A stretch of 64,000 nucleotides of DNA from IMG/VR virus record IMGVR_UViG_3300009512_000010, positions 95,935 to 159,934 of that record. One strand, written 5' to 3'. Positions 23,291 through 58,592 of this stretch are shown piece by piece. Made by a program: the position numbers and the translations under genes. The notes under the pieces are model-generated. The model was given only the letters and a program-made list of their open reading frames with translations. It was not told the DNA's origin and ran no database searches. The stretch comes from a virus. Position 1 is the first letter of the stretch. Each line of letters begins with the position of its first letter.

Positions 23291-23294
23291 TCAT

Positions 23295-29732: not shown

Positions 29733-29745
29733 AATATAGTATTCC

Positions 29746-30849: not shown

Positions 30850-30851
30850 GG

Positions 30852-32030
30852 TTACGCTCCGTCTTTCATTTTGTATTTAGTTGCATCATCATTCCATGTA
30901 AAGTCGAATGGATTATAGTGTTTCAATGTTTCTTTAGGTAATACACACCCATCAATATTGAGACTATCTTGAGCCTCGAATACCAATCTACTTGCACAAG
31001 CCATAGCAAACTGACAGTCTGCACAATCTTTTACCTTACTAGACTTATTTATACCCTTTGTAATCAGTTCGTTCTTACGTTGTAAGATCTCTTCGAATGT
31101 AAGTCCTGTTACGTCTAGGTTCTTATTAGTTATAAAGAACGCTTGTTCGTGAAGCATTACATTCAAGTGTGTCGTAGGTCCGTTCTCTCCTGGAACAATA
31201 GTAATGCCCACAAAGTTGATTGAGTTACAGTAGAGATTAGCCATAGACATAACAGTCTCACTAGCATTGTTCTCATCAATAACCGACTCAAGGAACTTAT
31301 TCCACGCAAACAAGTTGTTACGTTGAATGATTTGATTAGGTGCCCTAGCGAATGCAGGGTTCATTTCCATAATAGTGCCGAAGTCGTTTACAGAACGATC
31401 AATCAGCCTATTGTATTTCTCTTTGTCAATCTGCTTACCGACAACGTTAGAAGCCTGTAATGTCCAAGACCAATCCATCATCTTTGGAGTTTCGTTCTTA
31501 AAGAACTCTATTTTCTCCATAACTCTGTTATAGTAATCGTCATCATCCAACATCTCGTTAATACGACCAATCGGCATAATGAATTCGATAACCATGTCAC
31601 GTCTATACGCATCTAGGTCATCCAGAATAGCAAAGATCTCTCTGACCTTTTCCATTGAAGCATTGTCGAACTTAGCTGGAGACGCAATACGTGCATTAGT
31701 GTGTTCTCTCATTATAGCTTGAACAGTTGGGTTTGTCAATACTTCTTTTGTATTCTTAGCAGAAAATAGATCTGTAGGTCCGATAACAAACTCTCTTAGG
31801 TTACCACCCACACGTAATACACCATCAGCAAGTTCCTTAGCACGATCAATGATCTGTTGATTGCTTACAGGATCAATTGCTTTGTCAACGAAACATCCAA
31901 GACAGCCCTGTTCACATCCAGCCAGAACTTCCATCTGAATAAGAACATCGAACTTTGTTGCATCAGATGGTGCCAGACTTTCGGGTCCTGAGTATCTCAT
32001 CTGCTTACAATATGATTGTTGCATTGTCAT
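30852..32030 (-). CDS. Radical SAM paralogue E of the IGPTD family
   Basis: The 392 residues start at the ATG one base after the stop of the Cys-tail gene, with GAGGAAG before it. The motif is CEQGCLGC (C39, C43, C46), with FVIGPTDLFS at 81-90 and a C-terminal set CADCQFAMAC, then GCVLPKE. It is the paralogue directly coupled to the two candidate substrate genes, which makes it the first choice for the enzyme acting on their tails. Confidence 0.9.
   Translation of the reverse strand: MTMQQSYCKQMRYSGPESLAPSDATKFDVLIQMEVLAGCEQGCLGCFVDKAIDPVSNQQIIDRAKELADGVLRVGGNLREFVIGPTDLFSAKNTKEVLTNPTVQAIMREHTNARIASPAKFDNASMEKVREIFAILDDLDAYRRDMVIEFIMPIGRINEMLDDDDYYNRVMEKIEFFKNETPKMMDWSWTLQASNVVGKQIDKEKYNRLIDRSVNDFGTIMEMNPAFARAPNQIIQRNNLFAWNKFLESVIDENNASETVMSMANLYCNSINFVGITIVPGENGPTTHLNVMLHEQAFFITNKNLDVTGLTFEEILQRKNELITKGINKSSKVKDCADCQFAMACASRLVFEAQDSLNIDGCVLPKETLKHYNPFDFTWNDDATKYKMKDGA
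31046..31053 (-). promoter_or_regulatory. Possible internal late promoter
   Basis: TATAAATA in the context GGTATAAATAAG on the minus strand, inside radical SAM paralogue E and about 200 bases before the 367-residue gene. The sequence matches the consensus, but a chance match within coding DNA cannot be excluded. Confidence 0.35.
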
Positions 32031-32031
32031 G

Positions 32032-32418
32032 TTATCGTCTTCCTCTTGATGTATGACAGCTGGTGTGACAGCTTGAATGGCATAATACTGCTGAGATAGA
32101 TCTGTTAGTAAGTCTATCTTCAATGAGGTCTACGGTTCTTCGCACTCCGTCCTCTAATGTGTCTACGATGTCTTGTGAATATATCCTACTACCTGCGGAG
32201 ACTCCAGCATCAATATAGTTATCAAATAGAGAGTCAGCCGCACCTGTATATTCGAACCTATGTGTCGTAGTATTAGATCCTGTTCCACCCATAGCAGTGG
32301 GATTGTTATTCTGATATGCTGTAGTTGTTATAGTAATAGTTTTGTCAAACGTTCTTAACTTACCACCTGCGTAAGTTTGCATGTAGCTATCTATACTATC
32401 TCTGGTTAAATTGCCCAT
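32032..32418 (-). CDS. Cys-tail protein 2, candidate modified virion peptide
   Basis: The 128-residue protein is paralogous to the upstream gene. Shared blocks: LRTFDKTITITTTAY (about residues 21-35), RFEYTGAADS (about 53-62), AGSRIYSQDIVDT (about 75-87), and the C-terminus CHSSCHTSCHTSRGRR (113-128). The body looks like a small beta fibre protein with a helical stretch. The tail has three Cys, each followed by His and each His followed by Xaa-Ser, then a basic end. Its start overlaps the previous stop (TAATG) and one base separates it from radical SAM paralogue E. It may be a substrate of that enzyme or a metal-binding tip. Confidence 0.85.
   Translation of the reverse strand: MGNLTRDSIDSYMQTYAGGKLRTFDKTITITTTAYQNNNPTAMGGTGSNTTTHRFEYTGAADSLFDNYIDAGVSAGSRIYSQDIVDTLEDGVRRTVDLIEDRLTNRSISAVLCHSSCHTSCHTSRGRR
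32035..32082 (-). repeat. Cys-His-Xaa-Ser tail coding region, copy 2
   Basis: This encodes CHSSCHTSCHTSRGRR. The same 16 residues are encoded at 32421-32468 with different codons at nine positions and no amino acid change. Confidence 0.9.
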
Positions 32419-32804
32419 TATCTACGACCTCTTGATGTGTGACAACTAGTGTGACAAGAGCTATGACATAACAATGCTGAAATGGATCTGTCAGTGATAC
32501 GAGATTCAACCTGATCTACTGTTCTTTGCATAACACTATTAATTGAGTCGATAACATCTTGACTGTACATTCGACTTCCTGTGTATATTCCACCATCCAA
32601 ATCGTTATTATAAGTTGAGTCAGCCGCACCTGTATATTCAAAGCGTTGGTTAAAGCCAGCCGAGCTTTGCGGTCCCGCTTGAGTCTGCGACACTGTTTGT
32701 AATGTATATGCAGTTACAGTAAACGTCATCGTTTTATCAAACGTCCTTAACTGGCTTCCAGCCTGTGCCTGTAAACTAGTGTTATTTTGTGCATAGGTTG
32801 GCAT
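32418..32804 (-). CDS. Cys-tail protein 1, candidate modified virion peptide
   Basis: The 128 residues include LRTFDKTMTFTVTAY, RFEYTGAADS, GSRMYSQDVIDS and the same C-terminus CHSSCHTSCHTSRGRR, about half identical to its neighbour overall. There is no signal peptide or membrane segment and no Cys outside the tail. The ATG directly follows the stop of the collagen-like fibre gene (TAAATG), and its own stop overlaps the start of copy 2. It is therefore co-translated with fibre genes on one side and radical SAM genes on the other. Confidence 0.85.
   Translation of the reverse strand: MPTYAQNNTSLQAQAGSQLRTFDKTMTFTVTAYTLQTVSQTQAGPQSSAGFNQRFEYTGAADSTYNNDLDGGIYTGSRMYSQDVIDSINSVMQRTVDQVESRITDRSISALLCHSSCHTSCHTSRGRR
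32421..32468 (-). repeat. Cys-His-Xaa-Ser tail coding region, copy 1
   Basis: This encodes CHSSCHTSCHTSRGRR, identical in protein to 32035-32082 but different at many third and Ser/Arg codon positions. Confidence 0.9.
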
Positions 32805-44237: not shown

Positions 44238-44700
44238 TTTCAATCCTTGTTGGGTCTACTAGAAAGTAGTTATATGTATATCTTGTTTCGTCGCTAGACT
44301 TATAATCATGCCACGTCACACCTGTTTCTCCACAGAATATCATTAGACGATTAGGTTTCCATTCAATGGTCTCTTGTTTGCCATCGATATAAAATGTCGT
44401 TCCATGGTTTTTCTCTGGACTGAGATATATGATTGCTGACATGATCTTAAACTCTGCTTCATCATGCATCTTGTGGGTAAAGTTTGGGACTGTGGTTGCG
44501 GTGTGTATAAACCTAGCCAATTCTCTATAACCACGTTTCTTACCAAAGTAATTTGCAAACTGCGCAATCTCTGGTGTTGGATCATAGTCGTACCAATGCC
44601 TACTAACACTACCGTCTTGCTTGGTAGATCTTGCATCAAAGAGTATAGCATTGTATGTTTCTTCTGATAAGAAGTTATCTCTTATAAGTATTTTTGTCAT
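44203..44700 (-). CDS. 2-oxoglutarate/Fe(II) oxygenase-like protein
   Basis: This 165-residue enzyme resembles prolyl 4-hydroxylase-type oxygenases. HKMHDEAEFKIMSAIIYLS (about 76-94) carries the HxE/D ligands and the first core strand; LMIFCGETGVTWHDY has the distal His; ETRYTYNYFLV has the Arg for 2-oxoglutarate. It overlaps the upstream radical SAM gene by four bases. The substrate may be a peptide or a sugar; not determined. Confidence 0.8.
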   Translation of the reverse strand: MTKILIRDNFLSEETYNAILFDARSTKQDGSVSRHWYDYDPTPEIAQFANYFGKKRGYRELARFIHTATTVPNFTHKMHDEAEFKIMSAIIYLSPEKNHGTTFYIDGKQETIEWKPNRLMIFCGETGVTWHDYKSSDETRYTYNYFLVDPTRIENEAYKDHCIRV

Positions 44701-45641
44701 ATTCTATATTTCTCCATTGTGAAAGTTGAGCCAGTTAGTGTATTGTAATCAGCATCAAAGTTAGACCACACCAAAGCATCAGGTGCATCATATAACATGT
44801 CACAGTTCTTACAGTATTCTATAGAGTCGAAGTCATGGAACTCGTGCGCTCTTCTTAATTCATTATACTTCTCTCCATGCCAAATATCCATGATAGACTC
44901 TTCGGATAGATGACCAAGAACCGCTTTACTATCTTGACCTAGAACCATACAACAAGGTACAACCGCACCTGTCTTTTTATCATTCCCCCCTGCTCTTACA
45001 ATGAGATCTGGCGAGAATGGTCTGCCACAACTGCGCTTCTTCTTACCCTCACGCCAATCAACACCCAACTGTCCCGACCAATTGTGCATCTTCCAAATCG
45101 ACGCTTTAATACCAGGAACGTGATTAATCCAATTCTCACGGTATTGACGTACTTCTTCTGCTATGTTATTGTTGTCTAGGATGAGTGAATAAGATCCAAG
45201 GTTTCCACCATATTCTATTGCGGCATTGGCATTGTCCATTACCTGATAGAAAGCATCTTTGCTCATATTCTCTTCGTAGGTTTTCTGATCGTAACCAGTG
45301 ACTGAGACACGTGCAAAGTGCATACCCGCATCAATAGTCTTTTTCATTAAATCGTTCTTAAACCAAAAGCCATTAGTGATGAACGACATCTTAAACCCAC
45401 GATCAGATCCAGCCTTAACAAAGTCTGGTAATCTTTTGTTCATGGTAGGTTCTCCCGAACCCTCAAGATAGATCTCCTCACACTCGCCAATATCAACCAA
45501 TTGATCTAAGGTATTAATGAACTGTTGATATGACATCATCCTTTTAAAGGACTTCTCTCTACCATCGTCAAAAGAGTGTGGGCAGAACGTACAACTGTAG
45601 TTGCACGAGCCACATATCTCTATCACTGCTTTTTTAATCAT
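44697..45641 (-). CDS. Radical SAM-SPASM protein (minus strand, island B)
   Basis: The 314-residue enzyme has CNYSCTFC at C13, C17, C20 and GSGEP at 61-65. A SPASM domain follows: CGRPFSP, VPCCMVLG, and EYCKNCDML. The order IVRAGGN..VVPCCMVLGQD..GHL is the usual SPASM layout. It is led by a late promoter at 45668-45675 and transcribed with the oxygenase and the glycosyltransferase. Confidence 0.92.
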   Translation of the reverse strand: MIKKAVIEICGSCNYSCTFCPHSFDDGREKSFKRMMSYQQFINTLDQLVDIGECEEIYLEGSGEPTMNKRLPDFVKAGSDRGFKMSFITNGFWFKNDLMKKTIDAGMHFARVSVTGYDQKTYEENMSKDAFYQVMDNANAAIEYGGNLGSYSLILDNNNIAEEVRQYRENWINHVPGIKASIWKMHNWSGQLGVDWREGKKKRSCGRPFSPDLIVRAGGNDKKTGAVVPCCMVLGQDSKAVLGHLSEESIMDIWHGEKYNELRRAHEFHDFDSIEYCKNCDMLYDAPDALVWSNFDADYNTLTGSTFTMEKYRI

Positions 45642-45643
45642 GT

Positions 45644-45651
45644 TATAAATA
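45644..45651 (+). promoter_or_regulatory. T4-type late promoter, plus-strand island B
   Basis: TATAAATA on the plus strand, 36 bases before the nitroreductase start. It indicates that the plus-strand sugar and radical SAM island is expressed late. Confidence 0.75.
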
Positions 45652-45667
45652 CCCCTGAATACTTCAC

Positions 45668-45675
45668 TATTTATA
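45668..45675 (-). promoter_or_regulatory. T4-type late promoter for the minus-strand radical SAM gene
   Basis: TATAAATA on the minus strand, 27 bases before the start at 45641. It faces the plus-strand late promoter, with start points predicted to overlap by a few bases. Confidence 0.7.
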
Positions 45676-45686
45676 GGGAAATTAAA

Positions 45687-46238
45687 ATGACTATAGAAGA
45701 ACTCTTTACAACAAGAAGGCAGATAAGATCCTTTGATAGTGAGAAGATCCCATCAAGAGAACTTATAGAAGATCTTTTGCACAAGACCTTTTCCTTGACG
45801 CCATCCAAACAGAACATCTTTCCATATTCTGTTCACGTTATAGGTCCTGAGCATTATGCCTTGAAGGATGAACTATATCTATTAAGTCAACACTTGGGTC
45901 AAACATCAAACACTCAATCACTTGCTCCATATAACCTATTATTCACTCCAAGACTTGCTAAACCGAATAGTTTTAGTAACGAAATAGCTCAAGTCAACAT
46001 TGAAGTGGGCATGTTCAGCGCAATACTTACTGGACTATGTGTTGAGCAAGGACTATCGGTTGGATATATGTTATGTTATAAAGATGATGTGAGCTATTGG
46101 ACTAACTTTCCTAATGATGGTTTGAGGGTCGAATTCACCATGCATATAGGTTATGCTGATGATGCTGTTAGACCGTTTATCTCAGAATCTAAACCAGAAT
46201 ATGATGAGGTAATAAATTGGTATAAGGCGATAAAATGA
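45687..46238 (+). CDS. Nitroreductase-family flavoprotein
   Basis: The 183 residues start at the ATG after AGGGAA. The opening MTIEELFTTRRQIRSFDSEK is the FMN phosphate-binding RRSxRxF-type motif of the family, and LTPSKQNIFPYSVHVI follows as the second flavin-binding segment; VNIEVGMFSAILTGLCVEQG is the dimer helix. The substrate could be a modified residue or a sugar intermediate. Its stop overlaps the next start (ATGA). Confidence 0.82.
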   Translation: MTIEELFTTRRQIRSFDSEKIPSRELIEDLLHKTFSLTPSKQNIFPYSVHVIGPEHYALKDELYLLSQHLGQTSNTQSLAPYNLLFTPRLAKPNSFSNEIAQVNIEVGMFSAILTGLCVEQGLSVGYMLCYKDDVSYWTNFPNDGLRVEFTMHIGYADDAVRPFISESKPEYDEVINWYKAIK

Positions 46239-46966
46239 GAATTACACATGCTAACCAGACGATAGAGTTTTTTACGGATTCGTCTCTTCCTAGTATTCCC
46301 AAACATATTGGATTGTCTGTATCTGGGGGTCTCGATTCGGCTTCCCTTTTATTCCTAATATGTAAACACTATCCACAGATTAAAGTGTCTCCTATGATCG
46401 GAATAGATGCTTATGCAAAGTTTGATGCTCTGTGTGCATTTGACATTATTGAGTGGATGAAAGATAGATTTCCTAATCATAACATACTAGACAATCAATC
46501 ATTTACCTTTGATCATTGGGATCCGTATTGGATAGAGAAAGCTCAAGATCTACACGATAGGGGTGTGGCGACAGCACTACAGGCTGAAGGAACCTCTAAG
46601 AACTTGCAAATGAGGAATGGACTACAGACGATCAAGGATGAGATAAAGTATGAATGGCATGTTACAGGAACAACTGCAAACCCCCCTGATGATTATATGA
46701 AGAAGCATGGGTTCTATCATAAGGCTGAACATGTCAGAGATGAACCGCATAATAGAAAGACTTTTGTGAGAGGTCTATATACTCCATACATAAATGTAAA
46801 CAAGAAATTTGTGGCTGGTGTGTACAAAGATAACGATTTAATGGATGAGTTATATCCATACACAAGCTCGTGTGTGGGGATGCCAGACAAGACAGACTAT
46901 GGAACTGTTGCTTGCGGAACTTGCTTCTGGTGTCATGAAAAGAAATGGGGATTTGAAGATGATTAA
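46235..46966 (+). CDS. PP-loop ATP pyrophosphatase, QueC-like (1)
   Basis: The 243-residue protein has the PP-loop SGGLDSAS at 30-37, which activates a carboxyl or carbonyl group with ATP. The C-terminus has CVGMPDK then CGTCFWCHEKKWGF, a zinc-knuckle pattern like QueC (7-cyano-7-deazaguanine synthase). No QueD or QueE is present in the window, so a role in 7-deazaguanine synthesis is not supported here; amide or nitrile formation in island B chemistry is equally possible. Confidence 0.8.
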   Translation: MRITHANQTIEFFTDSSLPSIPKHIGLSVSGGLDSASLLFLICKHYPQIKVSPMIGIDAYAKFDALCAFDIIEWMKDRFPNHNILDNQSFTFDHWDPYWIEKAQDLHDRGVATALQAEGTSKNLQMRNGLQTIKDEIKYEWHVTGTTANPPDDYMKKHGFYHKAEHVRDEPHNRKTFVRGLYTPYINVNKKFVAGVYKDNDLMDELYPYTSSCVGMPDKTDYGTVACGTCFWCHEKKWGFEDD

Positions 46967-47690
46967 ATACAACAATATAGAACTAGATCTATTCTCACGT
47001 GGAGTTCCAGACAAGGTTATGCTATCATTGTCTGGTGGACTTGACTCGGCGTCCTTACTTTATATCATATGTAAGGAGTATCCCCAAATGGAAATCATTC
47101 CATACACTGGTAAGGATAAATATGCTCCATTTGATTTCTTATCCGCAACTATGGTCATTCAGTGGATGCAAGATAAGTTTCCCGATAACAATATTAAGGA
47201 ACACGAATGGTTTGAATTTGATGTTCAAGATCCTGTTCAGCGTAAAAGAGCGGAAGACGAGTGGGAGAATGAAAAGGTATTGGTTGGTGGTAAAAGAGTT
47301 GAAAGGTGTAGCACAATAAATGGTCTAGCCAAGATCCTAATGATTAGAGAGTTTACTCATTCTGTTTGGGATAAGCACAAAAACCCTATGATTGTGACTG
47401 GTATGACTGGCAACCCATCAGTTGAGGAAATGAAGAAACATGGGTTCTATGATGTTCGTGAGAAACGAAGGGATGATGGTAAGGTTGCTAAGGAATATGG
47501 ATTTAACTATCAACCATTTGTCAACGTAGACAAGAAGTTTGTTGCCGATATATATCGAAGTAATGATATCATGGATCTCTATGAAGTAACTTCATCGTGC
47601 ATTGGTAGTGCTAAAAATACTAATTTTCATACCGAACCGTGTGGCGTATGCTTCTGGTGTCATGAAAAGAAGTGGGCATTTGAGTGTTAA
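46959..47690 (+). CDS. PP-loop ATP pyrophosphatase, QueC-like (2)
   Basis: The 243-residue paralogue of the previous gene shares the PP-loop SGGLDSAS (25-32), KKHGFY in the middle, VNVDKKFVA, and CIGS...CGVCFWCHEKKWAF at the end. Both copies keep all motifs, so neither looks decayed. The ATG overlaps the previous stop. A tandem pair suggests two related substrates or a heterodimer. Confidence 0.8.
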   Translation: MIKYNNIELDLFSRGVPDKVMLSLSGGLDSASLLYIICKEYPQMEIIPYTGKDKYAPFDFLSATMVIQWMQDKFPDNNIKEHEWFEFDVQDPVQRKRAEDEWENEKVLVGGKRVERCSTINGLAKILMIREFTHSVWDKHKNPMIVTGMTGNPSVEEMKKHGFYDVREKRRDDGKVAKEYGFNYQPFVNVDKKFVADIYRSNDIMDLYEVTSSCIGSAKNTNFHTEPCGVCFWCHEKKWAFEC

Positions 47691-48556
47691 ACATTGTAGT
47701 AACAGGTAAACCATCTGATGGTCTATTCTTCTACAGTTGTGAACACTACTTCAAACTCTCATCTCTAGGAATTGATGTACAATTGATTGTCTTTAGGGCA
47801 GGGGGAGGAAATGGAACACATTTTCCTAAGAAGGAATATCTAAATTCGGTAAAAGAGAAATACACTAAAACCATACCAATTATATTCGATGATTACTTTC
47901 CAGAACCCAATGAAGTTAATCTAATTATGGGCAGAAGTATGCTTACTCTTGCTTATAAACAGAGAGGCGATCATGATGAAGATAAACAGTTTAGTATGTC
48001 TCTTCTATTTAAAAACCCATTGATATCTGTTTACTCGGAAAACCACCCTATAGAGTATGATGAGGCTGTTGACTTCTTTAAGCCCAAGAAGATTTATGAT
48101 TTGTGTGACCATGATGTATATCCTAATGGTGTAGGAGAACAGTTTGAGAAGTATATTCACTTTGATAACTATAAAGATCCTGTGGATGATATACAATTCA
48201 AGTATCTATTTCTTGGAACCACACCAGACTATTACAAATGGGCAGAAGAATCTATTGACAAATATCCTGATCATGGTATAATAGGTTACTGTCCACCAGA
48301 CTACGTTAATCTAAATCTCAATAACGTAAGAGCACCTGTTAAGAACTTAATGGGAATATTCGATACGTATGTTTACCTCAAGAAGACATTCGATCCTGCA
48401 CCTAGAATACTACAAGAGTGTTGGCACTATGGGAAGAACGTTGTAGTTGATAGACCAGACATGCACGATGGTGGATCTGTATATATAGAACGTGGTGCAA
48501 AAACGCCTAATGTTAACGCTATACTAAGGGCGTATGATGAAATACATAGTAGTTAG
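47684..48556 (+). CDS. Probable GT-B glycosyltransferase
   Basis: The 290 residues start at a GTG overlapping the previous stop. The C-terminus PAPRILQECWHYGKNVVVDR has the layout of the GT4/GT-B donor-binding loop. The N-terminus LNIVVTGKPSDGLFFYSCEH is Rossmann-like. No clear signature for a sugar. It is the first of several transferases in the island. Confidence 0.5.
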   Translation: MLNIVVTGKPSDGLFFYSCEHYFKLSSLGIDVQLIVFRAGGGNGTHFPKKEYLNSVKEKYTKTIPIIFDDYFPEPNEVNLIMGRSMLTLAYKQRGDHDEDKQFSMSLLFKNPLISVYSENHPIEYDEAVDFFKPKKIYDLCDHDVYPNGVGEQFEKYIHFDNYKDPVDDIQFKYLFLGTTPDYYKWAEESIDKYPDHGIIGYCPPDYVNLNLNNVRAPVKNLMGIFDTYVYLKKTFDPAPRILQECWHYGKNVVVDRPDMHDGGSVYIERGAKTPNVNAILRAYDEIHSS

Positions 48557-49316
48557 TGGTTGTAGTTGGACATCTCCATACAGACCCAAATACGATAGAG
48601 GTGGAACAAGTTATGACTTTGTTAAATGGCCTGACCATCTGAGAAACATGATAGACTGTGATGCCGAAGTAATCAATTTTGGTCGGAGTGGTATGGGTAA
48701 TGAATTTATATACACAACTCTAAAGGATACTATATTAGAAATTGATCCAAAGGATATATTGTTAGTCGTAGCCGCATGGAGTGGATGTAGGCGTGAAGAT
48801 TGGATTACACATGATCCAAGCCTAAGAGACAAACAATGGCAAAGTGTCATACCAAGGCACGAAGGGTACACAAGATACTCTAAGGATCTCGACTTTATGG
48901 TTGCAAAATCTAACAATTGGAGATGGTCTCTGGGGAGTTTATGTAAACAATTGGGTGTTAGACTTGTAGACTTTAATATGCTTTGTGCTTCTAGTGAAGA
49001 AAGTCATGGAAAAGATCCAATGTTTGACCTAATTGACCCACGACAGTCACTATCGCAACAAAAAGCAGAAAGATTAGGGCTTCCATCTACAACATCAGTA
49101 GGAGAACTGCTCTTTTGCAATAGGGAAGCAATTTATAATTATTATTGGGGCAGAGCTAAACGATTAACTTCATACAATGCTCTTCCAGAAGTTCAGTATG
49201 AGGTATGCATTGATCCGAAATATAGAATAGAAATTGACGACTCTCACCCAAACGCCCAAGGGCACAAACAGATAGCAGAATGGATATATGATGAAATACA
49301 ACGGTTGGGACATTGA
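48534..49316 (+). CDS. SGNH/GDSL hydrolase-like protein (1)
   Basis: The 260-residue protein has block I VSGCSW with Ser11 as nucleophile, NFGRSGMGNEFI (block II Gly/Asn), and DDSHPNAQGHKQIAEW with the Asp-x-x-His pair near the C-terminus. The family adds or removes acyl groups on sugars. Starts at ATGATG after AAGGG; the second ATG (48537) is better spaced. Overlaps the previous gene. Confidence 0.78.
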   Translation: MMKYIVVSGCSWTSPYRPKYDRGGTSYDFVKWPDHLRNMIDCDAEVINFGRSGMGNEFIYTTLKDTILEIDPKDILLVVAAWSGCRREDWITHDPSLRDKQWQSVIPRHEGYTRYSKDLDFMVAKSNNWRWSLGSLCKQLGVRLVDFNMLCASSEESHGKDPMFDLIDPRQSLSQQKAERLGLPSTTSVGELLFCNREAIYNYYWGRAKRLTSYNALPEVQYEVCIDPKYRIEIDDSHPNAQGHKQIAEWIYDEIQRLGH

Positions 49317-50364
49317 ATACTTAGAGAGCATTGACGATTATACGGCAGTGTTTGATTTGATGATGGCTAAGGATCCCGAAGGACAGACTGAGAACCTTGA
49401 GAATGCCATTGCTGAATATACTGGTAGAAAGCATTGTGTCAGTATGGCAAATGCAACGGACGCTCTTAGGTTTTCCCTTATGGGAATTTGGGAAGGTGAT
49501 GAGGTACTTGTCACAGACTTCTCTTGGATCTCTACATCCTCTTGCATCTCACACGTAGGAGCAACACCTGTCTTCTGTGACATCGATCCAGATAGCTACC
49601 ACATATCCATTGAAAGCATTAAACGGATGAAATCGGATAAGACCAAGGCTCTTATCTACACACATCTCTATGGTAACATGACAGACACTACTGAGATCGA
49701 AAATTGGTGTGATAGTAACGGCATTCGTTTCATTGAGGATAGTGCTCAATCATTTGGATCTTCTTTGAATGGACGCAAAGCAGGTACTATCGGACATGTT
49801 AGCTCATATAGCTTTAACGCCAATAAGGTTATTGCTGGGCTGTGTGGCGGTGGTGTGTTGATGACTGATGACGATGCTCTAGGCGATTATGCTAAACTGA
49901 TGAGACGCCATGGTAAGAACAAAGACTTCTCTATGTTGGGTTACAACTCTAAGATGTACACAGGCAATGCTGATGTCATTCTTATGCGTATGAGAAGCAT
50001 GGAGACATGGCAGAAAAGGCGTAATGAGATTGCTTGGATCTACCACGAGATGTTGAGTGATGAATTCCGTTGCCAAATTGTATCCGAAGGACTTGAGCAC
50101 AACTTCCATAAATATGTCATTGGCTTTGAAAGTAAGGATGAGCGTAAACGAGTAAAGAATGCAGTTAAGGCTCAGGGGCAAAACTTGTCCATTCACTACG
50201 AGAATACTCTATCTAACAATTCGCTATATAGTAACATAGAGTATAGAAAAGATGACTGCCACAACGCACAACATGCGGCAGACACTGTAATGTCATTGCC
50301 TATTCATGCATGGCTAATGGACGAAGAAGTAGAACGCTTATGCAATATGATACTGATGAGTTAA
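49288..50364 (+). CDS. DegT/DnrJ/EryC1/StrS aminotransferase
   Basis: The 358-residue PLP enzyme transfers an amino group to a nucleotide sugar. The PLP lysine is Lys180 in SYSFNANKVIAG; the DSAQSFGSSLNG stretch (151-162) and GDEVLVTDFSWISTS (about 70-84) are family signatures. It suggests that the island makes an amino sugar. Overlaps the SGNH gene by about 29 bases. Confidence 0.93.
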   Translation: MMKYNGWDIEYLESIDDYTAVFDLMMAKDPEGQTENLENAIAEYTGRKHCVSMANATDALRFSLMGIWEGDEVLVTDFSWISTSSCISHVGATPVFCDIDPDSYHISIESIKRMKSDKTKALIYTHLYGNMTDTTEIENWCDSNGIRFIEDSAQSFGSSLNGRKAGTIGHVSSYSFNANKVIAGLCGGGVLMTDDDALGDYAKLMRRHGKNKDFSMLGYNSKMYTGNADVILMRMRSMETWQKRRNEIAWIYHEMLSDEFRCQIVSEGLEHNFHKYVIGFESKDERKRVKNAVKAQGQNLSIHYENTLSNNSLYSNIEYRKDDCHNAQHAADTVMSLPIHAWLMDEEVERLCNMILMS

Positions 50365-50714
50365 ACTTAATTTGGGATAAAGACCTGTCTACGTTTTGTC
50401 TACTCGATTCCAATTACAACATGATACAAATGGATCTTGAAAAGGAAAACGTTCTGCACAAACTAATATCCAATCTAGTACAAGATGATATTATCGATCA
50501 CAGTCTTATAGGCGATGAGGTGGATGACATATACCTATTTCTAATAGAGAAGATATATGCGACAACCAACCCAACGAACCATAGTATATATAAATTTAGT
50601 AAGACTTTAAATCAAAAAACTAAGATGAAAATCATCACGGCATTCAATGTGTTTCTCAATGGTGTCATGCAAACCAAAACGAACTCAAGGATAGTGGCAC
50701 AATATGAGACCTGA
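50340..50714 (+). CDS. Hypothetical helical protein
   Basis: The 124 residues start at the ATG at 50340. It is acidic at the start and mainly helical (ENVLHKLISNLVQDDIIDHS; VDDIYLFLIEKIYATTN), with one Cys. No known family. Lies between the aminotransferase and a radical SAM gene, overlapping both. Confidence 0.65.
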   Translation: MQYDTDELNLIWDKDLSTFCLLDSNYNMIQMDLEKENVLHKLISNLVQDDIIDHSLIGDEVDDIYLFLIEKIYATTNPTNHSIYKFSKTLNQKTKMKIITAFNVFLNGVMQTKTNSRIVAQYET

Positions 50715-51384
50715 TCAGCACAGTATGTTTTCTAGAAAGAAGATGAATTTAGACATTACTCATAGGTGCCCCCTTGAGTGTCTTTGTTGTCAACGGTGGA
50801 GTTCATTTATCCGCCATGGAATAAAAGTTCCTGGCGAAGACATTTCGCTTGATAACTTTAAGAAGTTAGCTGATCACTTCCTACATCTGAACTTCTGTGG
50901 ACAGGTATCTGATCCAGTACATCACCCTAAATTTATTGAGATCCTTGAACATACTGCCGTTATGAAACGTAGTGTGAGTGTTCATCACGCATCGGGAGCA
51001 AAGCCTGAGAAATGGTATCCAAAGGCATTTGCCGCTAATCCCAAAGCTAGGTGGATATTTGGTATTGATGGATTGCCAGAAGAGAGTAATATGTATCGGA
51101 TCAATCAAGACGGTGAAAAGATATATAGGATGATGGAAGTTGCTAGAGGTATCTTGGTATCAAAACCAGTATGGCAGTACATCGTATTCAGTTATAACGA
51201 GAACCACATACAGGATGCTTTAAAAATGGCAAAGGCTATTGATGTAGAGTTTATGACTCTCATATCTTCACGGTGGAGAAGTCATGATGATCCGTTAAAG
51301 CCTAAGAACTCTGCTATGAGATTAGATTTGTATAGCGAAGACGTTAACAAAAAGAATGATAGGATTGTGAAAAATGAAAAATAA
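50704..51384 (+). CDS. Radical SAM core protein without its SPASM domain (split pair 1)
   Basis: The 226-residue protein has CPLECLCC (C22, C26, C29), then FCGQVSDPVHHPKFIEIL in the SAM-binding position instead of GGE, and WIFGIDGLPEESN. The core is complete, but the protein ends just where a SPASM domain would begin. That domain is on the next gene (51374-51730). The two frames overlap by 11 bases (ATGAAAAATAA). Confidence 0.85.
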   Translation: MRPDQHSMFSRKKMNLDITHRCPLECLCCQRWSSFIRHGIKVPGEDISLDNFKKLADHFLHLNFCGQVSDPVHHPKFIEILEHTAVMKRSVSVHHASGAKPEKWYPKAFAANPKARWIFGIDGLPEESNMYRINQDGEKIYRMMEVARGILVSKPVWQYIVFSYNENHIQDALKMAKAIDVEFMTLISSRWRSHDDPLKPKNSAMRLDLYSEDVNKKNDRIVKNEK

Positions 51385-51730
51385 AGATAATGTTGAAATA
51401 GATCCTAAGTGTATGAATGGTAAGCAAGAGGCTTTTGGCTTAACCAATAGGGGAGAAGTCATTCCATGCTGTTGGGCTGATACCGATAGAGTGAGGAGAG
51501 ATCCTGTCTATAAGAATCTAGTGGCTGTTTCTAACATTAATGATTACGATAGTGTTGAAGAAATCTTCCTACAAGACGAGTGGATTGAATTTGCAGAGAA
51601 CTTAGAAAAAGGCGATAATGTCTTTGATGTGTGTTATACTATATGTAAAAAGAGAGAATCTCCACAACATAAAGCAGAGTTGTTTATAGATACCGAAACT
51701 GGGGAAGTGAAAAAGGGTAAACACACCTAA
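51374..51730 (+). CDS. Stand-alone SPASM-like domain (split pair 1)
   Basis: The 118 residues begin near a weak AGGA site. CMNGKQEAFGLTNRGEVIPC (about residues 13-32), CCW and CYTICKKR are the Cys pattern of a SPASM domain, normally at the C-terminus of a radical SAM protein. The frame differs from the core gene, so either two polypeptides or a frameshift at AAAAATGAAAAATAAA. Confidence 0.8.
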   Translation: MKNKDNVEIDPKCMNGKQEAFGLTNRGEVIPCCWADTDRVRRDPVYKNLVAVSNINDYDSVEEIFLQDEWIEFAENLEKGDNVFDVCYTICKKRESPQHKAELFIDTETGEVKKGKHT

Positions 51731-52563
51731 TGAAATTAGGCACAAAGCATCTGTATGGTAGTAACTACAAGTCTGTGGATTTCTACCTAAGTAAGTCGTG
51801 TAACAAATCGTGCCATTATTGCACGGCGTGGACACTACAGATGCGCAATCTTCATGTTGATATGGAGTTCCTGAGAACATGTTTAGATGGCCTTGCTCCG
51901 TTTCCCACTAAGATAAATCTGTTGGGTGGTGAGCCCGGACTTATTAAGAACCTTGACGAAGTCATTGCAGAAATCCGTAAGTATCCTAACTTCATAATAT
52001 CAGTTCTATCAAACTCTTTAATTAGAAAGTTCTATCCACACATTCTTGAGGATCCAGATATCATTTACATGGAGCATCTAGTATTGGACTTTCATGAAGA
52101 TAGAATTGAAAAGCTAGGTAACTATCCTTTTATTCAGCCTAATGAATGCAACAACTACAATCTCGTAATTCAAACTCCCAACTACTTCAAGTATAGAGAG
52201 AACCACGATTTAACAGAGATTGATCACGCATCAACTATATTAAAACCGTTCAATTCAAGATCCCCCGACTATGATGCGACATCACAAGCCGCCGTTGAAG
52301 ACAGGAAGATGTGTTCTATGTTCCCATCAGTCCCTGTGATTGACTTTGAGATAAAGAAGATACGACACTGTAGTAAGAAGTTCATTAATGGGTCTAGGCA
52401 CTTTGATGTGACCGAGGATAACTTGCATAAGATGATGACGTTTAAGTTGTTTAAGTATGAAAAGTATTGCGTTAATTGTACCGAGCATTTGGGGGCAACA
52501 GGACATTATAGGGCAGTCAAGGTATTAGAAATGTTAAACGAATATGAGATGAGGAATGTATAA
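51730..52563 (+). CDS. Radical SAM protein (island B, middle)
   Basis: The 277-residue enzyme has CNKSCHYC at C24, C28, C31 and NLLGGEPG further on. C-terminal Cys (MCSMFP, RHCSKKF, YCVNCTEH) suggest an auxiliary cluster. Its ATG overlaps the previous stop (TAATG). Complete in one gene, unlike its two neighbours. Confidence 0.87.
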   Translation: MKLGTKHLYGSNYKSVDFYLSKSCNKSCHYCTAWTLQMRNLHVDMEFLRTCLDGLAPFPTKINLLGGEPGLIKNLDEVIAEIRKYPNFIISVLSNSLIRKFYPHILEDPDIIYMEHLVLDFHEDRIEKLGNYPFIQPNECNNYNLVIQTPNYFKYRENHDLTEIDHASTILKPFNSRSPDYDATSQAAVEDRKMCSMFPSVPVIDFEIKKIRHCSKKFINGSRHFDVTEDNLHKMMTFKLFKYEKYCVNCTEHLGATGHYRAVKVLEMLNEYEMRNV

Positions 52564-53233
52564 GTCCCATGGCCTTAGCGTATTCTTAGACATATCGACA
52601 TACTGCAATGCCGCCTGTCCTCAGTGTCATAGAACTGATCCTAACGGTCTAGGGAAAGTAAATTGGTTGCCTCTGATTCAATGGAATCTTGAAACCTTTA
52701 AGAAGGCTTATAATTTAGATAAACCTAGAGTTCGATATCACTCCTTTGAGTTCTGTGGAACTTGGGGCGATCCTGTAATGAATAGAGAACTGTTGGGCAT
52801 GGTACAATATATTATTGACAACAGCAATGCCACCATTAGCATAGACACTAACGGAAGTATAAGAGATGAAGAATGGTGGTGGAATTTAGGAATAATTGGT
52901 GGCAGAAGGCTACACGCAACCTTTGCTGTTGATGGCATAGACCAGAAGATGCATTCTCACTATAGAAGAAATACTGACCTTAAAAAGGTATTAGCTAATA
53001 TGGAATCTATATCACAAACACGATCTAAACCTAGAGTACGTACAATCGTATTTAAACACAACGAAGACTACCTTGAACAAATAGAAGAGTTGGTGCGTTC
53101 TCATGGAGCAAGCACAATTGAGTTTACTCCTTCGGATCGATGGGAAAAGGGCGCAGTATTTAACTTTACAGATGAATTGGGTAATGCTCAAAAGTTAGAA
53201 CAAAGTAGGATACTTGATGGTTATAAAGTGTAA
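52556..53233 (+). CDS. Radical SAM core protein without its SPASM domain (split pair 2)
   Basis: The 225-residue protein has CNAACPQC (C17, C21, C24), FEFCGTWGDPVMNRELLGMV in the SAM-binding position and FAVDGID further on. The domain ends at VFNFTDELGNAQKLE, where single-chain family members go on into SPASM. It overlaps the next gene by 17 bases. Confidence 0.85.
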   Translation: MYKSHGLSVFLDISTYCNAACPQCHRTDPNGLGKVNWLPLIQWNLETFKKAYNLDKPRVRYHSFEFCGTWGDPVMNRELLGMVQYIIDNSNATISIDTNGSIRDEEWWWNLGIIGGRRLHATFAVDGIDQKMHSHYRRNTDLKKVLANMESISQTRSKPRVRTIVFKHNEDYLEQIEELVRSHGASTIEFTPSDRWEKGAVFNFTDELGNAQKLEQSRILDGYKV

Positions 53234-53507
53234 GTGGTTAGAGGATAATAGAATACTTGTTAATCCAGATGGTCAAGTATTACCTTGTTGTTACCTTGCC
53301 AACAAAGATTGGCAACTAAAGCAAAAGGATAGAACCAACAACGAGGTGGTTATGCAAGAATATAATGATAACAAAGAAAAGTACAATATACATACCAATG
53401 ATATGAAAGATATCATTAATGGAGAATGGTTTACTAAAACCTTACCAGATTCATGGAAAGATGAAACCAAAACCATATCTCAATGTAAAATATGGTGTGG
53501 GGAATAG
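53217..53507 (+). CDS. Stand-alone SPASM-like domain (split pair 2)
   Basis: The 96 residues start at the ATG eight bases after AGTAGGA. CKWLEDNRILVNPDGQVLPC then CYLANKDW and CKIWCGE form the SPASM pattern, with the Gly-Gln-Val-Leu-Pro-Cys block typical of the first auxiliary cluster. A true ribosome site argues for a separate polypeptide rather than frameshifting. Confidence 0.82.
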   Translation: MVIKCKWLEDNRILVNPDGQVLPCCYLANKDWQLKQKDRTNNEVVMQEYNDNKEKYNIHTNDMKDIINGEWFTKTLPDSWKDETKTISQCKIWCGE

Positions 53508-53508
53508 A

Positions 53509-54051
53509 ATGCGTAAGAACTTATTGGTAAGTGGGTGTAGTTTTACTAATCACGACCCTGAGAGTGATGGTATAAATAGTCGTTGGTATCATTACATTGC
53601 CGATAAGTTGGATATGGATACCATAAACTTAGCACGTAATGGTTCTGGAAATGAACACATCTTCTCTAGCATATATGATTACCTTGCATCTGATGCCGTG
53701 AAGCCAGATATGATAATTGCCGCATGGTCTAAGTCCCAAAGGAGAGATTATCAAAATCATGGAAGATGGATGAACGATAGAGTGGATCTTCGTGGAGATA
53801 TCTCATATCATTTAAAAAGAACCGCTAGATATAAGCGTATGTTAGAGCTATTATGTAATCATTATGGTATAAGATATATATCGCTTCAAATGCTTGAATT
53901 GCTACATAAGGAAGAGCTTGGGGCAAGAATATCCGTGCAAGACAAAGTGCTTAGATGGAATACTAGTGATATGATAAGCAAGACTGATCACCATCCGTCT
54001 GAAATTGGTCATGAAAAAATAGGAAAATACGTCTATGAAAACTATCTTTAG
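53509..54051 (+). CDS. SGNH/GDSL hydrolase-like protein (2)
   Basis: The 180 residues start at the ATG after GGGGAA; earlier in-frame codons lie inside the SPASM gene. VSGCSFTNHDPES, then NLARNGSGNEHIFSS and DHHPSEIGHEKIGKY give the SGNH blocks. It resembles the protein at 48534-49316 and probably acts on the same class of acylated sugar. Confidence 0.78.
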   Translation: MRKNLLVSGCSFTNHDPESDGINSRWYHYIADKLDMDTINLARNGSGNEHIFSSIYDYLASDAVKPDMIIAAWSKSQRRDYQNHGRWMNDRVDLRGDISYHLKRTARYKRMLELLCNHYGIRYISLQMLELLHKEELGARISVQDKVLRWNTSDMISKTDHHPSEIGHEKIGKYVYENYL

Positions 54052-55546
54052 TGCATCTTATGGTCCTCACGATCACAATACGTATGATGGTGTGTGGCAC
54101 AATCAAGTAGAAAGATATAGTAGATTAAAGCACAATGTGCCTTGGCATTTCGATTCATACCCTCATCACACCACCGCAGATAAGATGAATCAAAACGATA
54201 ACAGTGCTGGGCAGAAGTTCTATGATGAGACATACAAACCTGATGAGCATGAGGTATTTGCTTTCACAACAACTATAGGTGGGTTGAAGCAGATTGATAA
54301 TGCCGCATTCCCTCAAAAGTTCTTAGACTTTACACCCACCAACCTGTGGGACTATTCTATGGAAGGTAATCAATATTACATTGATCATCACCAATCTCAT
54401 GCGGCATATGCATTTCTTCAATCTGGTTACAAAGAGAGTGATATCCTTGCTATTGATGGTAGGGGGTGGAAGTTCAATTGCATCTTCGTGAATAAGAACG
54501 GTGACATAACAGATCTGTCTGATGATATGAATATGGGAATCCTTTGGAACCATTTCGCAAAAGAATTAGGATTTGGTAATCTAGGTGCAAGCAAACTTAT
54601 GGGGTTAGCCGCTTATGGCGAATACTGTCATGAGATACATATGCATTTAGAAAGATATTGGGAATTCGGTAAGTTACCCGATAGCCGAATGTCTTGGGGA
54701 AAACTAAGATCACTACATCAACTTAGGCCAGAAAACATCGCCAAAACACTTCAAGTAGCAACTGAAGAACGTGTTAGAGACTATGTACTTGCTTTGAAAA
54801 CAAGTGATAACTTATGTGTATCTGGTGGAGTTGCATACAATGGCTACATGAATGAGATGCTAACCAAGACTTGGGATAACGTATATGTGCCACCTGCTCC
54901 TGGAGATGAAGGTCAGTCGATTGGTACTTACATGCATGCAGACTATATTCTAAACGATAATGTACATATACCAAGTGTATATTCTGGTGAAGATTATGAC
55001 TATGTTGGTGAAGAGAAAGTTAATATTAAAGAGGTAGCACAGGCTATAGCTGATGGTAAGATTGTTGGTTGGTTCCAAGGTAAGTCTGAGAGTGGTCATA
55101 GGGCATTGGGTAATCGCAGTATCCTTGCAGATCCACGAAACCCTGAGATCAAATCTATTATTAACAACACCATTAAGAATCGTGAAGACTTTAGACCATT
55201 TGCACCGTCTGTCCTTGTAGAGCATTACCAAGAATATTTTGATACTAATCAGCCTAGTCCGTACATGGCAAGGATCTGTCCTGTCAAATCTGATAAGGTT
55301 CCTGGTATTACACATCTAGATAACACTGCCAGAATACAAACTGTTAGTAAGGAAGACAACCCTAAGTATCATGAGTTGATTAGCGAATTCTACAAGATCA
55401 CTGGCATTCCTATGGTACTTAACACTAGCTTCAACTGTCAAGAGCCTATTGTAGAGACTCCTAAAGAAGCTCTATATACTTTTAATAAAACAAAAATGGA
55501 TATGGTGGTAATCAATGATTATATCGTGCGTAAAGTGGGGCGATAA
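54035..55546 (+). CDS. NodU/CmcH-family carbamoyltransferase
   Basis: The 503-residue enzyme transfers a carbamoyl group from carbamoyl phosphate to a hydroxyl, often on a sugar. IDHHQSHAAYAFLQSGY (about 117-133) has the metal-binding His pair, AIDGRGW and GLAAYGEY follow, and the C-terminal GWFQGKSESGHRALGNRSIL is the carbamoyltransferase C domain. Assignment is secure. It points to carbamoylated sugar products. Confidence 0.94.
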   Translation: MKTIFSASYGPHDHNTYDGVWHNQVERYSRLKHNVPWHFDSYPHHTTADKMNQNDNSAGQKFYDETYKPDEHEVFAFTTTIGGLKQIDNAAFPQKFLDFTPTNLWDYSMEGNQYYIDHHQSHAAYAFLQSGYKESDILAIDGRGWKFNCIFVNKNGDITDLSDDMNMGILWNHFAKELGFGNLGASKLMGLAAYGEYCHEIHMHLERYWEFGKLPDSRMSWGKLRSLHQLRPENIAKTLQVATEERVRDYVLALKTSDNLCVSGGVAYNGYMNEMLTKTWDNVYVPPAPGDEGQSIGTYMHADYILNDNVHIPSVYSGEDYDYVGEEKVNIKEVAQAIADGKIVGWFQGKSESGHRALGNRSILADPRNPEIKSIINNTIKNREDFRPFAPSVLVEHYQEYFDTNQPSPYMARICPVKSDKVPGITHLDNTARIQTVSKEDNPKYHELISEFYKITGIPMVLNTSFNCQEPIVETPKEALYTFNKTKMDMVVINDYIVRKVGR

Positions 55547-56255
55547 GTTTAGTCACGAGCATGTGAATAGACTATACAAGATGGTATGTAAGAACTTCCA
55601 TGAGGAGTTCACATTCGTGTGTCATACCGAAGATCCTACAAACATTCATCCCGACATTAAGATCATTCCTCTTGACTTGTCATTAGATCTTGAGGTGTGG
55701 TGGTGGAAGCTTGTCTTGTTCCAACAACCGACTGATGAAGTCAATATGTTCTTTGATCTCGACAATGTAATCCAAGGCGATATAACACACTACAAAGATT
55801 ACGTTGAAAAAGATAAACTAATGATGATCAAGGCGTATTGGAAACCTTGGTTGGAAGATATTGAGCCTATTGCTAAGAAGGGTTTCGACATGAATCTAAA
55901 CTCATCTGTCTTAGTTTGGAGCGGAGATCTTACTGAAATATGGAATACGTTTCACGCAGATATCGAATTCTATCTACTGAAATATAGAGGAATTGATTCG
56001 TATCTTAATTTCGATCATGGGGAAAAATTAACTTTCTTCCCAAGGGGAGAGATCTACTCAAGAGCATATGGTATAGATGAGAATGATTATTGGTACACAT
56101 ATGGTACTCCTGGCCCTGAGAAGTTGTACTACAGTGAAGACCATACGATATGTATCTTTAATGGGTGGAGACGAAAGCGTTGGAGCGATAAGGCTGAAAA
56201 CGATTATATATTAGACAATGAGGGTTACAATGGTTTCGAACATTACTGGAATTAA
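55515..56255 (+). CDS. GT-A glycosyltransferase
   Basis: The 246-residue protein has the DxD motif in MFFDLDNVIQGD (about residues 78-89) and a GT-A-like start (MIISCVKWGDKFSHEHVNRL), most like GT8-type enzymes. LEVWWWKLVLFQQ is just before DxD, as in related marine virus transferases. It overlaps the carbamoyltransferase gene. Confidence 0.75.
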   Translation: MIISCVKWGDKFSHEHVNRLYKMVCKNFHEEFTFVCHTEDPTNIHPDIKIIPLDLSLDLEVWWWKLVLFQQPTDEVNMFFDLDNVIQGDITHYKDYVEKDKLMMIKAYWKPWLEDIEPIAKKGFDMNLNSSVLVWSGDLTEIWNTFHADIEFYLLKYRGIDSYLNFDHGEKLTFFPRGEIYSRAYGIDENDYWYTYGTPGPEKLYYSEDHTICIFNGWRRKRWSDKAENDYILDNEGYNGFEHYWN

Positions 56256-57006
56256 TAGACATGCTTGGCATAGTATATGGAAGCTGAACGATGTTGTAGA
56301 TGATTTGGGCAAATCTATTCATGCCGTGAGAGATCTATTGCAACCTCATATGAGACCAGAACAGTTTAAAGCACTGATGTTTGCTATCAATAGGGACTAT
56401 GATATTCCTCACTTTTGGGACAGCATGTCACCCAATCAGAGTGTCAGCAAAACGTGGCTTAAAGAAGAGTTGAGTAAAGTTTCCGAATTCAAACAAGGGG
56501 GGAAATTGAAAGATGGCACATATCCAGTTGGAAAGAAAAGAATTCAATTAGTGGGTGGATGGTTTGGATTTCCATTAACCAACATTCTTCTGGATATCTT
56601 TAAAGGCGATCTGGACTTTATAGAAAATATCGACCTTGACGAAAATGCGATATCAGTATTTCATCAGATTGCTAACGAAAAGAAGCTAGATAAAGATGTT
56701 CGACTAATTGGCACTTGTGCAAATTTCTTGGATAATAATCCTAGATCTAATAGCATTGATGTCCTAATCAATACATCATCCGAACATATGCCACCACTAC
56801 CTCAACTGTTTAAGGATAAGAACCCAAAGCCAACATGTTTATATGTGCTACAAAGTAACAACATGACGCACCTTGAGGAGCATGTCAACTGCGTAAATAG
56901 TGAAGATGAGCTTGTCGAAACTTCTGAAATAACAGAGGTTGTATATAAAGGCAGTATGATGATGACTAATGGTTATAAAAGGTTTATGGTAATTGGCTAT
57001 CAGTAG
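56218..57006 (+). CDS. Probable SAM-dependent methyltransferase
   Basis: The 262-residue protein has a Rossmann-like centre: KKRIQLVGGWFGFPLTNILL (about 106-125) in the glycine-rich SAM site, IENIDLDENAISVFHQIA as the acidic strand 2, and VRLIGTCANFLDNN then VLINTSSEHMPP. This order is class I methyltransferase. The first 100 residues are helical. A start at the fifth codon is also possible. Confidence 0.6.
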   Translation: MRVTMVSNITGINRHAWHSIWKLNDVVDDLGKSIHAVRDLLQPHMRPEQFKALMFAINRDYDIPHFWDSMSPNQSVSKTWLKEELSKVSEFKQGGKLKDGTYPVGKKRIQLVGGWFGFPLTNILLDIFKGDLDFIENIDLDENAISVFHQIANEKKLDKDVRLIGTCANFLDNNPRSNSIDVLINTSSEHMPPLPQLFKDKNPKPTCLYVLQSNNMTHLEEHVNCVNSEDELVETSEITEVVYKGSMMMTNGYKRFMVIGYQ

Positions 57007-57847
57007 AGTTATATACAGTTTCTACATTGAAATTCCCACAGAATTATTGGTATCACACCACAGCTCCAAGGAGAAGTTTGCCGATAATTACGATTGGCTA
57101 TTGACAAGTCAGAAACATTATGCTAATAAGATAGGTGTAGAGTACAAACACTTCACTAAAGACGAAGCGTTTGATACATATGCTGAATGGTTTGAGGATA
57201 ACTATCCACAGATCTCTTACTATGATATCATCAACTTTTACAAGATCCGTCTAATGATGGACTTGTCTGAAGAGTATGATGAGGTTCTTTACCTAGACAT
57301 TGATGTCATACCAATGACAGATCTAAACTTCTTTGAGGAGATAGATCTGTCTAAAGGTATTGCTGTTATGACTGGTACTGCCAATGGACAAATGCCTGTC
57401 ACCAAGCAAGCAACCCTTTCATACACACATAGTGTGAGGTCTCCTATGGCTAAGATGTGGAACAGTAAATGTCTCATATCCGACTATGGTATGGGAGTAG
57501 ATCAACCTGATGTGTTCAACACTGCGATAGTGGGGGCAAAACGAGAACATCTAAAACAACTTAAATACTTCGATGATTTTGAGGAAACTCTTGACACGAT
57601 GGAAGGTATGATATGTGATGAGTTCTATCCCGATACCATCAGTTACATGTTTGGTTATGATAACGAAACTGTATGGGGGGTTAAGACATATCTAAACGAA
57701 GTTCCTTATCAGGAGTTAGGAGAATGGCACCACCTTATGGACAAGTGGAGCTATATAACTAAAGAAGCAAAGTTTGTACATTGTATTAGTAAGGACTTTG
57801 ACTATGTGAGGCAATGGTGTGAAAAGAATAATATTCAGTTTATATAG
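56993..57847 (+). CDS. GT8-like glycosyltransferase (1)
   Basis: The 284 residues start at a TTG after AAAAGG. DxD is in EVLYLDIDVIPMTDL (about 96-110), with NTAIVGAKREHL and VHCISKDF further on; this is the GT-A retaining type (GT8-like). It is related to the next gene (shared LYLDxDVIP). Confidence 0.82.
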   Translation: MAISRVIYSFYIEIPTELLVSHHSSKEKFADNYDWLLTSQKHYANKIGVEYKHFTKDEAFDTYAEWFEDNYPQISYYDIINFYKIRLMMDLSEEYDEVLYLDIDVIPMTDLNFFEEIDLSKGIAVMTGTANGQMPVTKQATLSYTHSVRSPMAKMWNSKCLISDYGMGVDQPDVFNTAIVGAKREHLKQLKYFDDFEETLDTMEGMICDEFYPDTISYMFGYDNETVWGVKTYLNEVPYQELGEWHHLMDKWSYITKEAKFVHCISKDFDYVRQWCEKNNIQFI

Positions 57848-58592
57848 AAATGATCTTGATGATCATGCTTCTGTGCCCGATATCAAACGACAACAGTTCG
57901 CTAAGTATGCGGATCAGTTAGAAAATAAGCAGAGAGAATATGCAGATCTGTGTGGCGCAGACTATAAGATATTCAAACCAAACTCAACAGACTACATTGA
58001 CGTACAATTCGAAAAGCTTAACATGTTTGAGGAGTTGAGACATAAGTACGATCAAGTAATGTACCTAGATTTTGATGTCATACCGAATACTACAGTGAAC
58101 ATCTTCGATAAGTTTGATCTAAACACCATATGCGCTTTTAACATAGATGTTGCTATGGATCCAGAAATTATCAAACATAGATTTAGAGATAATTTTGCTT
58201 GGGATGCCATGGACATGTATAGCAAAGCCCTTAACAAGAAGGCCATGCTTCTCTTACACGACATATATGGAAGTGAAAGTTGCATCAACACAGGTGTTCT
58301 ATTAATGAACTCTGATTGTATTGCTAACCTAAACTTTGCAGAGAGATCTGTAGAGGCTGTACTCACATTCGATGAGTCATTAGAAGATAGCCTATATATG
58401 CCCGAAATGACTAAGAGTTGGGAATTAAACAATGAAGTCATAATATCATATATTATAGAGAAAGATAACCTACCGTTTACTAATATTGGAATGTCTTGGA
58501 ACTTCATAGTAGATCATAATGAGCAACAGATTACATCTGCCGCACACTTTCTACACTTTGTTCATAAGAAGTTTGATCTATACTTCGGGTGA
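57819..58592 (+). CDS. GT8-like glycosyltransferase (2)
   Basis: The 257 residues start at a GTG. DxD is in QVMYLDFDVIPNTTV, with CINTGVLLMNSDCI and AAHFLHFVHKKFD following. It is the last gene of the plus-strand island; its 3' end overlaps the opposing structural gene by 15 bases. Confidence 0.82.
   Translation: MKRIIFSLYRNDLDDHASVPDIKRQQFAKYADQLENKQREYADLCGADYKIFKPNSTDYIDVQFEKLNMFEELRHKYDQVMYLDFDVIPNTTVNIFDKFDLNTICAFNIDVAMDPEIIKHRFRDNFAWDAMDMYSKALNKKAMLLLHDIYGSESCINTGVLLMNSDCIANLNFAERSVEAVLTFDESLEDSLYMPEMTKSWELNNEVIISYIIEKDNLPFTNIGMSWNFIVDHNEQQITSAAHFLHFVHKKFDLYFG

Follow-up and report, generated by a model that had tools for sequence, protein, structure and literature searches.

Radical SAM/SPASM enzymes encoded as two genes, and probably built of two subunits, in marine T4-like phages

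Two radical SAM enzymes in a marine T4-like phage are each encoded as a pair of genes, a radical SAM core and a stand-alone SPASM/twitch-like protein (Table 1). It is almost certain that two separate genes exist in each pair. Each pair very probably constitutes a genuine two-gene radical SAM/twitch enzyme, whose two subunits would be joined non-covalently, in a phage biosynthetic cassette; this reading is based on gene conservation and on fused relatives. The split is family-wide in marine T4-like phages. It is kept in more than 100 viral sequences, some of which have the two genes in the opposite order, and thus it is real and the enzyme probably consists of two subunits. The sequence analyzed, called the window hereafter, spans 64 kb at the end of a virus record of 160 kb with T4-like structural genes. 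The terminase of this record matches that of Phage C48C1 at 72% and those of marine cyanomyoviruses at ~46%.

Table 1. Positions in the window of the two split pairs, the gene between them and the cassette that contains them.
Feature	Position	Strand	Evidence
A_N: radical SAM core, type A, 226 aa	50704..51384	+	Pfam Radical_SAM E 2.3e-4
CxxxCxxC of A_N	50767..50790	+	sequence
A_C: stand-alone SPASM/twitch-like, 118 aa	51374..51730	+	Pfam SPASM E 1.2e-3, ATG with TAGGA upstream
Putative cluster Cys of A_C, C13-X13-G-X4-C32C33 ... C87-X3-C91	51410..51646	+	sequence; alignment columns invariant
I: intact single-chain radical SAM, 277 aa, between pairs A and B	51730..52563	+	Pfam, homologue Mosig_00088
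B_N: radical SAM core, type B, 225 aa	52556..53233	+	Pfam Radical_SAM E 5.8e-6
CxxxCxxC (CNAACPQC) of B_N	52604..52627	+	sequence
B_C: stand-alone SPASM/twitch-like, 96 aa	53217..53507	+	Pfam SPASM E 3.6e-7; TTG alternative start 53214
Putative cluster Cys of B_C, C5-X13-G-X4-C24C25 ... C90-X3-C94	53229..53498	+	sequence; alignment columns invariant
Cassette containing the split pairs	45684..58592	+	Pfam, partial synteny with Mosig EXVC030M, neighbour counts

The sole Pfam match of A_N and of B_N is Radical_SAM (PF04055), in both cases under the gathering score. The first-pass annotation had placed the ends of both cores at the point where SPASM would begin, and the coordinates, the Pfam matches and ~140 distinct relatives, mostly split at that point, agree with it. 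For A_C and B_C, the best Pfam family is SPASM (PF13186), with A_C below and B_C above the gathering score. The assignment of a SPASM-like part to the next gene stands, but this part is probably a twitch-like version, without the CX2CX5CX3C motif. The overlap is 11 bp in pair A (51374-51384) and 17 bp in pair B (53217-53233), and in each pair the second gene is in the +1 frame. In pair B, the first Cys codon of B_C overlaps the B_N stop codon. The cluster motifs are intact in the window: CxxxCxxC in A_N and B_N, and CX13GX4CC ... CX3C in A_C and B_C. As had been noticed earlier, the arrangement occurs twice with an intact single-chain radical SAM gene in between. The product of this gene, radical SAM I, has its own C-terminal Cys pairs, which are twitch-like.

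Scans of viral contigs yielded more than 230 loci, and the distinct core sequences were classified by a systematic parse. By this automatic split/fused parse, which includes a handful of rows with the first ATG far from the core stop codon, ~70 distinct type-A sequences comprise 66 that are split, 1 that is fused and 3 that have no SPASM gene downstream. Among near type-B relatives, 61 of ~72 distinct sequences are split, at the same boundary as in type A, and ~10 are fused. The search for fused homologues proposed in the first-pass annotation was thus productive for both types. A more distant group (~30-35% identity) is fused, with a length of ~360 aa. The CxxxCxxC motif is kept in all 102 cores of the tree set. 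A cultured pelagiphage, Mosig EXVC030M, also has pair A split. A further split pair, type-B-like, lies by thyX and uvsX/recA-like genes outside the cassette in L244 (1378-2311), L245 and L246.

The frame of the SPASM gene relative to the core is variable: 77 distinct sequences have +1, 47 have +2 and 3 have 0. The most frequent start positions produce ATGA-type or 8-17 bp overlaps. The closely related contig L004 is 92% (core) and 93% (SPASM gene) identical to pair A; it still has two genes, split via ATGA in a relative frame unlike that of pair A. In L031, a stop codon is followed by an ATG and the genes do not overlap. These variations bear on a programmed ribosomal frameshift at the overlap, which would generate one fused radical SAM/SPASM protein and had been offered as one of three readings. 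Both overlaps in the window are +1, A-rich runs (aaaaatgaaaaataaa) are present at the A overlap, and fused homologues exist, all consistent with a frameshift. Nevertheless, the relatives use all three frames, L004 switched frame and remained split, and frameshifting cannot yield the SPASM-before-core order seen in at least eight records. Because the frames vary and L004 has been reframed, the pattern is explained neither by a slippery site common to the relatives nor by an error at one locus. Frameshifting in the window is highly improbable, and as a family-wide mechanism it is refuted by the variable frames and the reversed order.

The SPASM genes have their own ribosome sites. The anti-SD duplex is -6.1 kcal/mol for TAGGA upstream of the ATG of A_C, and -4.0 kcal/mol for AGGA 6 nt upstream of the ATG of B_C. 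The mean duplex energy is -4.1 kcal/mol at SPASM starts (n=119) versus -1.8 kcal/mol at ATGs internal to core genes (n=1702), a difference whose p-value is overstated because the sequences are kin but counted as independent. The good ribosome site earlier seen before 53217 is therefore real by comparison with the mean at internal ATGs.

Both the core and the SPASM halves are under purifying selection. Of four pairs of relatives, three have dN/dS of 0.06-0.13 and the fourth has 0.29-0.37, with similar values for the two halves. Distances among cores and among SPASM genes are correlated (r = 0.88 for A, 62 pairs; r = 0.77 for B, 53 pairs), and none of 999 permutations was as high, although such co-divergence is also expected of linked genes. 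The purifying selection is difficult to reconcile with a sequencing or assembly error, or with two recent inactivating frameshifts that made pseudogenes. A small indel would produce overlapping frames like those of the halves, but all cluster ligands are retained and dN/dS is far under 1 in both halves. Moreover, the split is kept in distant viruses, in many samples and in one cultured phage, and L003, an 84.9-kb contig from a separate IMG/VR listing, has junctions 100% identical to those of the window. An error or pseudogenes are scarcely credible here; conservation, purifying selection and the identical junctions in L003 rule them out, and with them the two independent breaks that the first-pass annotation had considered. 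The genuine split, the remaining reading of the three, is supported by the variable frames, the reversed order, purifying selection and conservation.

The SPASM gene is located upstream of the core in at least eight viral records. This order is observed in L143, L160, L173, L265, L266, L267, L269 and L270, mostly with ATGA overlaps; for G004 it follows from where the two matches lie. In L265, one core is preceded by a tandem pair of SPASM genes, and L160 and L162 have additional SPASM genes. In L269, the next radical SAM gene directly follows the core, which thus has no downstream SPASM gene. The reversed order and the extra copies show that the SPASM part is encoded by a gene in its own right. 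The numbers of cores and SPASM genes match in most records examined. It is conceivable, but rather unlikely, that SPASM/twitch subunits are exchangeable cassettes that are separated, duplicated and reordered independently and pair with more than one core per phage. If so, exchangeable SPASM subunits would alter the reaction, leading to a combinatorial radical SAM system.

The family may have originated from a single split with later fusions or from several splits. The unconstrained tree needs at least four split/fused changes, yet the AU test does not reject a tree constrained to group all split rows (p 0.57), so the tree tests do not separate the two. The sole fused type-A sequence of ~70 (L128, 2995-3999, 335 aa) is nested among split relatives. 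It is likely to be a secondary fusion, judging from its position.

The fused relative L027 (359 aa) was modelled with AlphaFold2 from an alignment of fused and split homologues, and the model has a pLDDT of 93 and a pTM of 0.91. It matches SuiB, SkfB, BlsE, anSMEcpe and MoaA over nearly the whole length with Z of 17-20, and the SPASM/twitch radical SAM enzymes as a group with Z of 15-20. The (beta/alpha)6 partial TIM barrel is seen in this model and in the PDB matches over the barrel. Alignment of conserved motifs maps the boundary of pair B in the window at or just before the coil 233-256 of L027, which is a linker in the fused chain. The model of the stand-alone SPASM gene shows a modest pLDDT of 79, and Foldseek found no PDB match for the SPASM half modelled alone. 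The modest confidence of this fold fits the need for a partner, although it is no proof.

The motif CX9-15GX4C is found in both SPASM genes of the window and in 73 of 89 SPASM-only proteins, or 84 of 89 when a longer spacer is allowed. None of the 89 has the CX2CX5CX3C motif of the two-cluster SPASM; only the terminal CX3C is present. CC and CX3C occur in all SPASM-only proteins examined. The SPASM part has five conserved Cys (C, CC and CX3C), a number that fits one cluster. Because of these five Cys and the absence of CX2CX5CX3C, the SPASM part is probably twitch-like with one auxiliary cluster.

In the proposed enzyme, the SAM-binding (beta/alpha)6 barrel and its CxxxCxxC cluster would come from the first gene. 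The second gene, read from its own overlapping ribosome site and probably translationally coupled, would provide the SPASM/twitch part, which most likely bears a single auxiliary iron-sulphur cluster. Non-covalent association of the two proteins would most likely give the equivalent of the single chain of other radical SAM/SPASM enzymes. The core would generate the 5'-deoxyadenosyl radical, while the SPASM partner would close the barrel and perhaps accept or donate an electron. The role of the auxiliary-cluster part in radical SAM/SPASM enzymes is still debated. In the two-gene version, the auxiliary-cluster subunit can be omitted, mutated, labelled or swapped. The barrel is left untouched, so the role of the auxiliary cluster is directly testable.

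The SPASM-only protein could instead be a free iron-sulphur electron carrier, or a substrate-recognition partner, serving several phage radical SAM proteins, those with intact single chains among them. The duplication and relocation of SPASM genes apart from cores (L160, L162 and L265) and the many radical SAM proteins per genome are compatible with this, and intermolecular electron transfer via an auxiliary cluster has been proposed for PapB (PMC10470005). It is improbable, however, given the equal numbers of cores and SPASM genes in most records examined, the co-divergence of the halves, and the integration of the domain into the chain in fused relatives and PDB homologues. A dedicated partner within a two-subunit enzyme is the preferred reading.

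The cassette begins with genes for a nitroreductase-like protein, two QueC-like ATP-PPases, u47684, an SGNH-like protein, a DegT aminotransferase and u50340. They are followed by pair A, radical SAM I, pair B, an SGNH/GDSL-like protein, a NodU-type carbamoyltransferase, GT8 and other glycosyltransferase-like proteins. Among 65 type-A loci, the neighbours include SGNH-like genes (44), u47684 (40), the DegT aminotransferase (40) and radical SAM I (28). Pair B is more often accompanied by glycosyltransferase-like genes (19/58). Because a NodU-type carbamoyltransferase and GT8 are present, our best guess is that the cassette probably serves to build or decorate a sugar or another small molecule. 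The two QueC/ExsB-like ATP-PPase genes adjoin each other (46235-47690), and their relatives are found in similar cassettes (L088, L160 and L162). In Mosig, the aminotransferase is a single chain with a C-terminal extension, and this extension is matched (30% over 77 aa; E 1e-7) by the product of the small gene 3' of the DegT aminotransferase gene (50310/50340-50714). By this similarity, there appears to be a second split/fused difference within the cassette.

The 64 kb contain ~13 radical SAM ORFs (20324-32123 and 44697-53233), and Pfam PF04055 detects 10 in the whole record. On the minus strand, 24686-32123 is a tandem series of related CxGCF-type radical SAM proteins. Two tandem genes on the same strand (32035-32418 and 32421-32804) encode 128-aa proteins with CHSSCHTSCHTSRGRR ends, and directly precede a radical SAM gene (30852-32123, minus strand) in the CPGCFV-type region. 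In 13 of 13 viral relatives found, the (CHxS)n-RGRR tail is retained and a radical SAM homologue follows. The 128-aa proteins belong to PHROG 35144; no relative was found in isolate phages and no match in NCBIfam. Together with the radical SAM gene, they look like a phage peptide-modification system (RiPP-like, His-Xaa-Ser-like) by collagen-like tail genes.

Family libraries do not name the reaction of the split enzymes, as no curated model came close to its cut-off. The best score against the NCBIfam radical SAM equivalogs (PqqE, MoaA, ScmF and others) was 40.9 bits versus a cut-off of 380. The PDB profile matches are remote (BlsE, Tes and SkfB), and type A has only one, marginal, match. Of the 132 SPASM matches in 31 archaeal genomes, 129 are in frames exceeding 150 aa. 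The other three comprise an orphan ORF, a fragment at a contig end and a degenerate match with internal stops, and no core/SPASM pair of the phage kind was found among the short frames examined. An archaeal SPASM frame of 182 aa is part of a radical SAM gene broken into two frames. When 84,980 species genomes were scanned for the SPASM pattern, one weak relative emerged, L086, an ordinary fused archaeal protein. No direct DNA relative of pair B was found in isolate phages.

Radical SAM-rich phage cassettes are already known, and the novelty lies in the split; no published description of a split radical SAM/SPASM enzyme was found in searches of open-access papers. Hypervariable regions of pelagimyophages carry radical SAM cassettes (PMC7029224), and Campylobacter phages have 11-12 radical SAM genes (PMC2853527). 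CP220 and CPt10 likewise have an exchangeable module rich in radical SAM genes with glycosyltransferase-like genes (PMC2853527). The CP220 relatives in that region are annotated as single chains of ~250-340 aa, and no adjacent SPASM gene of the split-pair family was found in the CP220/CPt10 region. In Pelagibacter phage Mosig EXVC030M, a type-A core (Mosig_00084) overlaps a separate SPASM-like gene (Mosig_00085); their cassette is similar, but the phage is without pair B. The core is annotated as a molybdenum cofactor enzyme and the SPASM-like gene as a hypothetical protein. This record illustrates a risk in annotation: the phage core resembles a one-cluster enzyme, and its partner a hypothetical protein.

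The phage pairs share with SuiB, SkfB, anSMEcpe, PqqE, MoaA, BtrN and BlsE the CxxxCxxC (beta/alpha)6 barrel and the SPASM/twitch part. The auxiliary-cluster part has been reviewed as a C-terminal extension of the chain (PMC9012708, PMC10470005). Fused phage relatives (L017, L026, L027, L206, L231, L242, L128 and others) have the same parts and Cys as the split pairs, but in one gene encoding one chain of ~335-390 aa, and are a minority of the clade. Whereas the auxiliary-cluster domain of described SPASM/twitch enzymes is C-terminal on the same chain, in the phage pairs it is a separate gene, sometimes upstream of the core.
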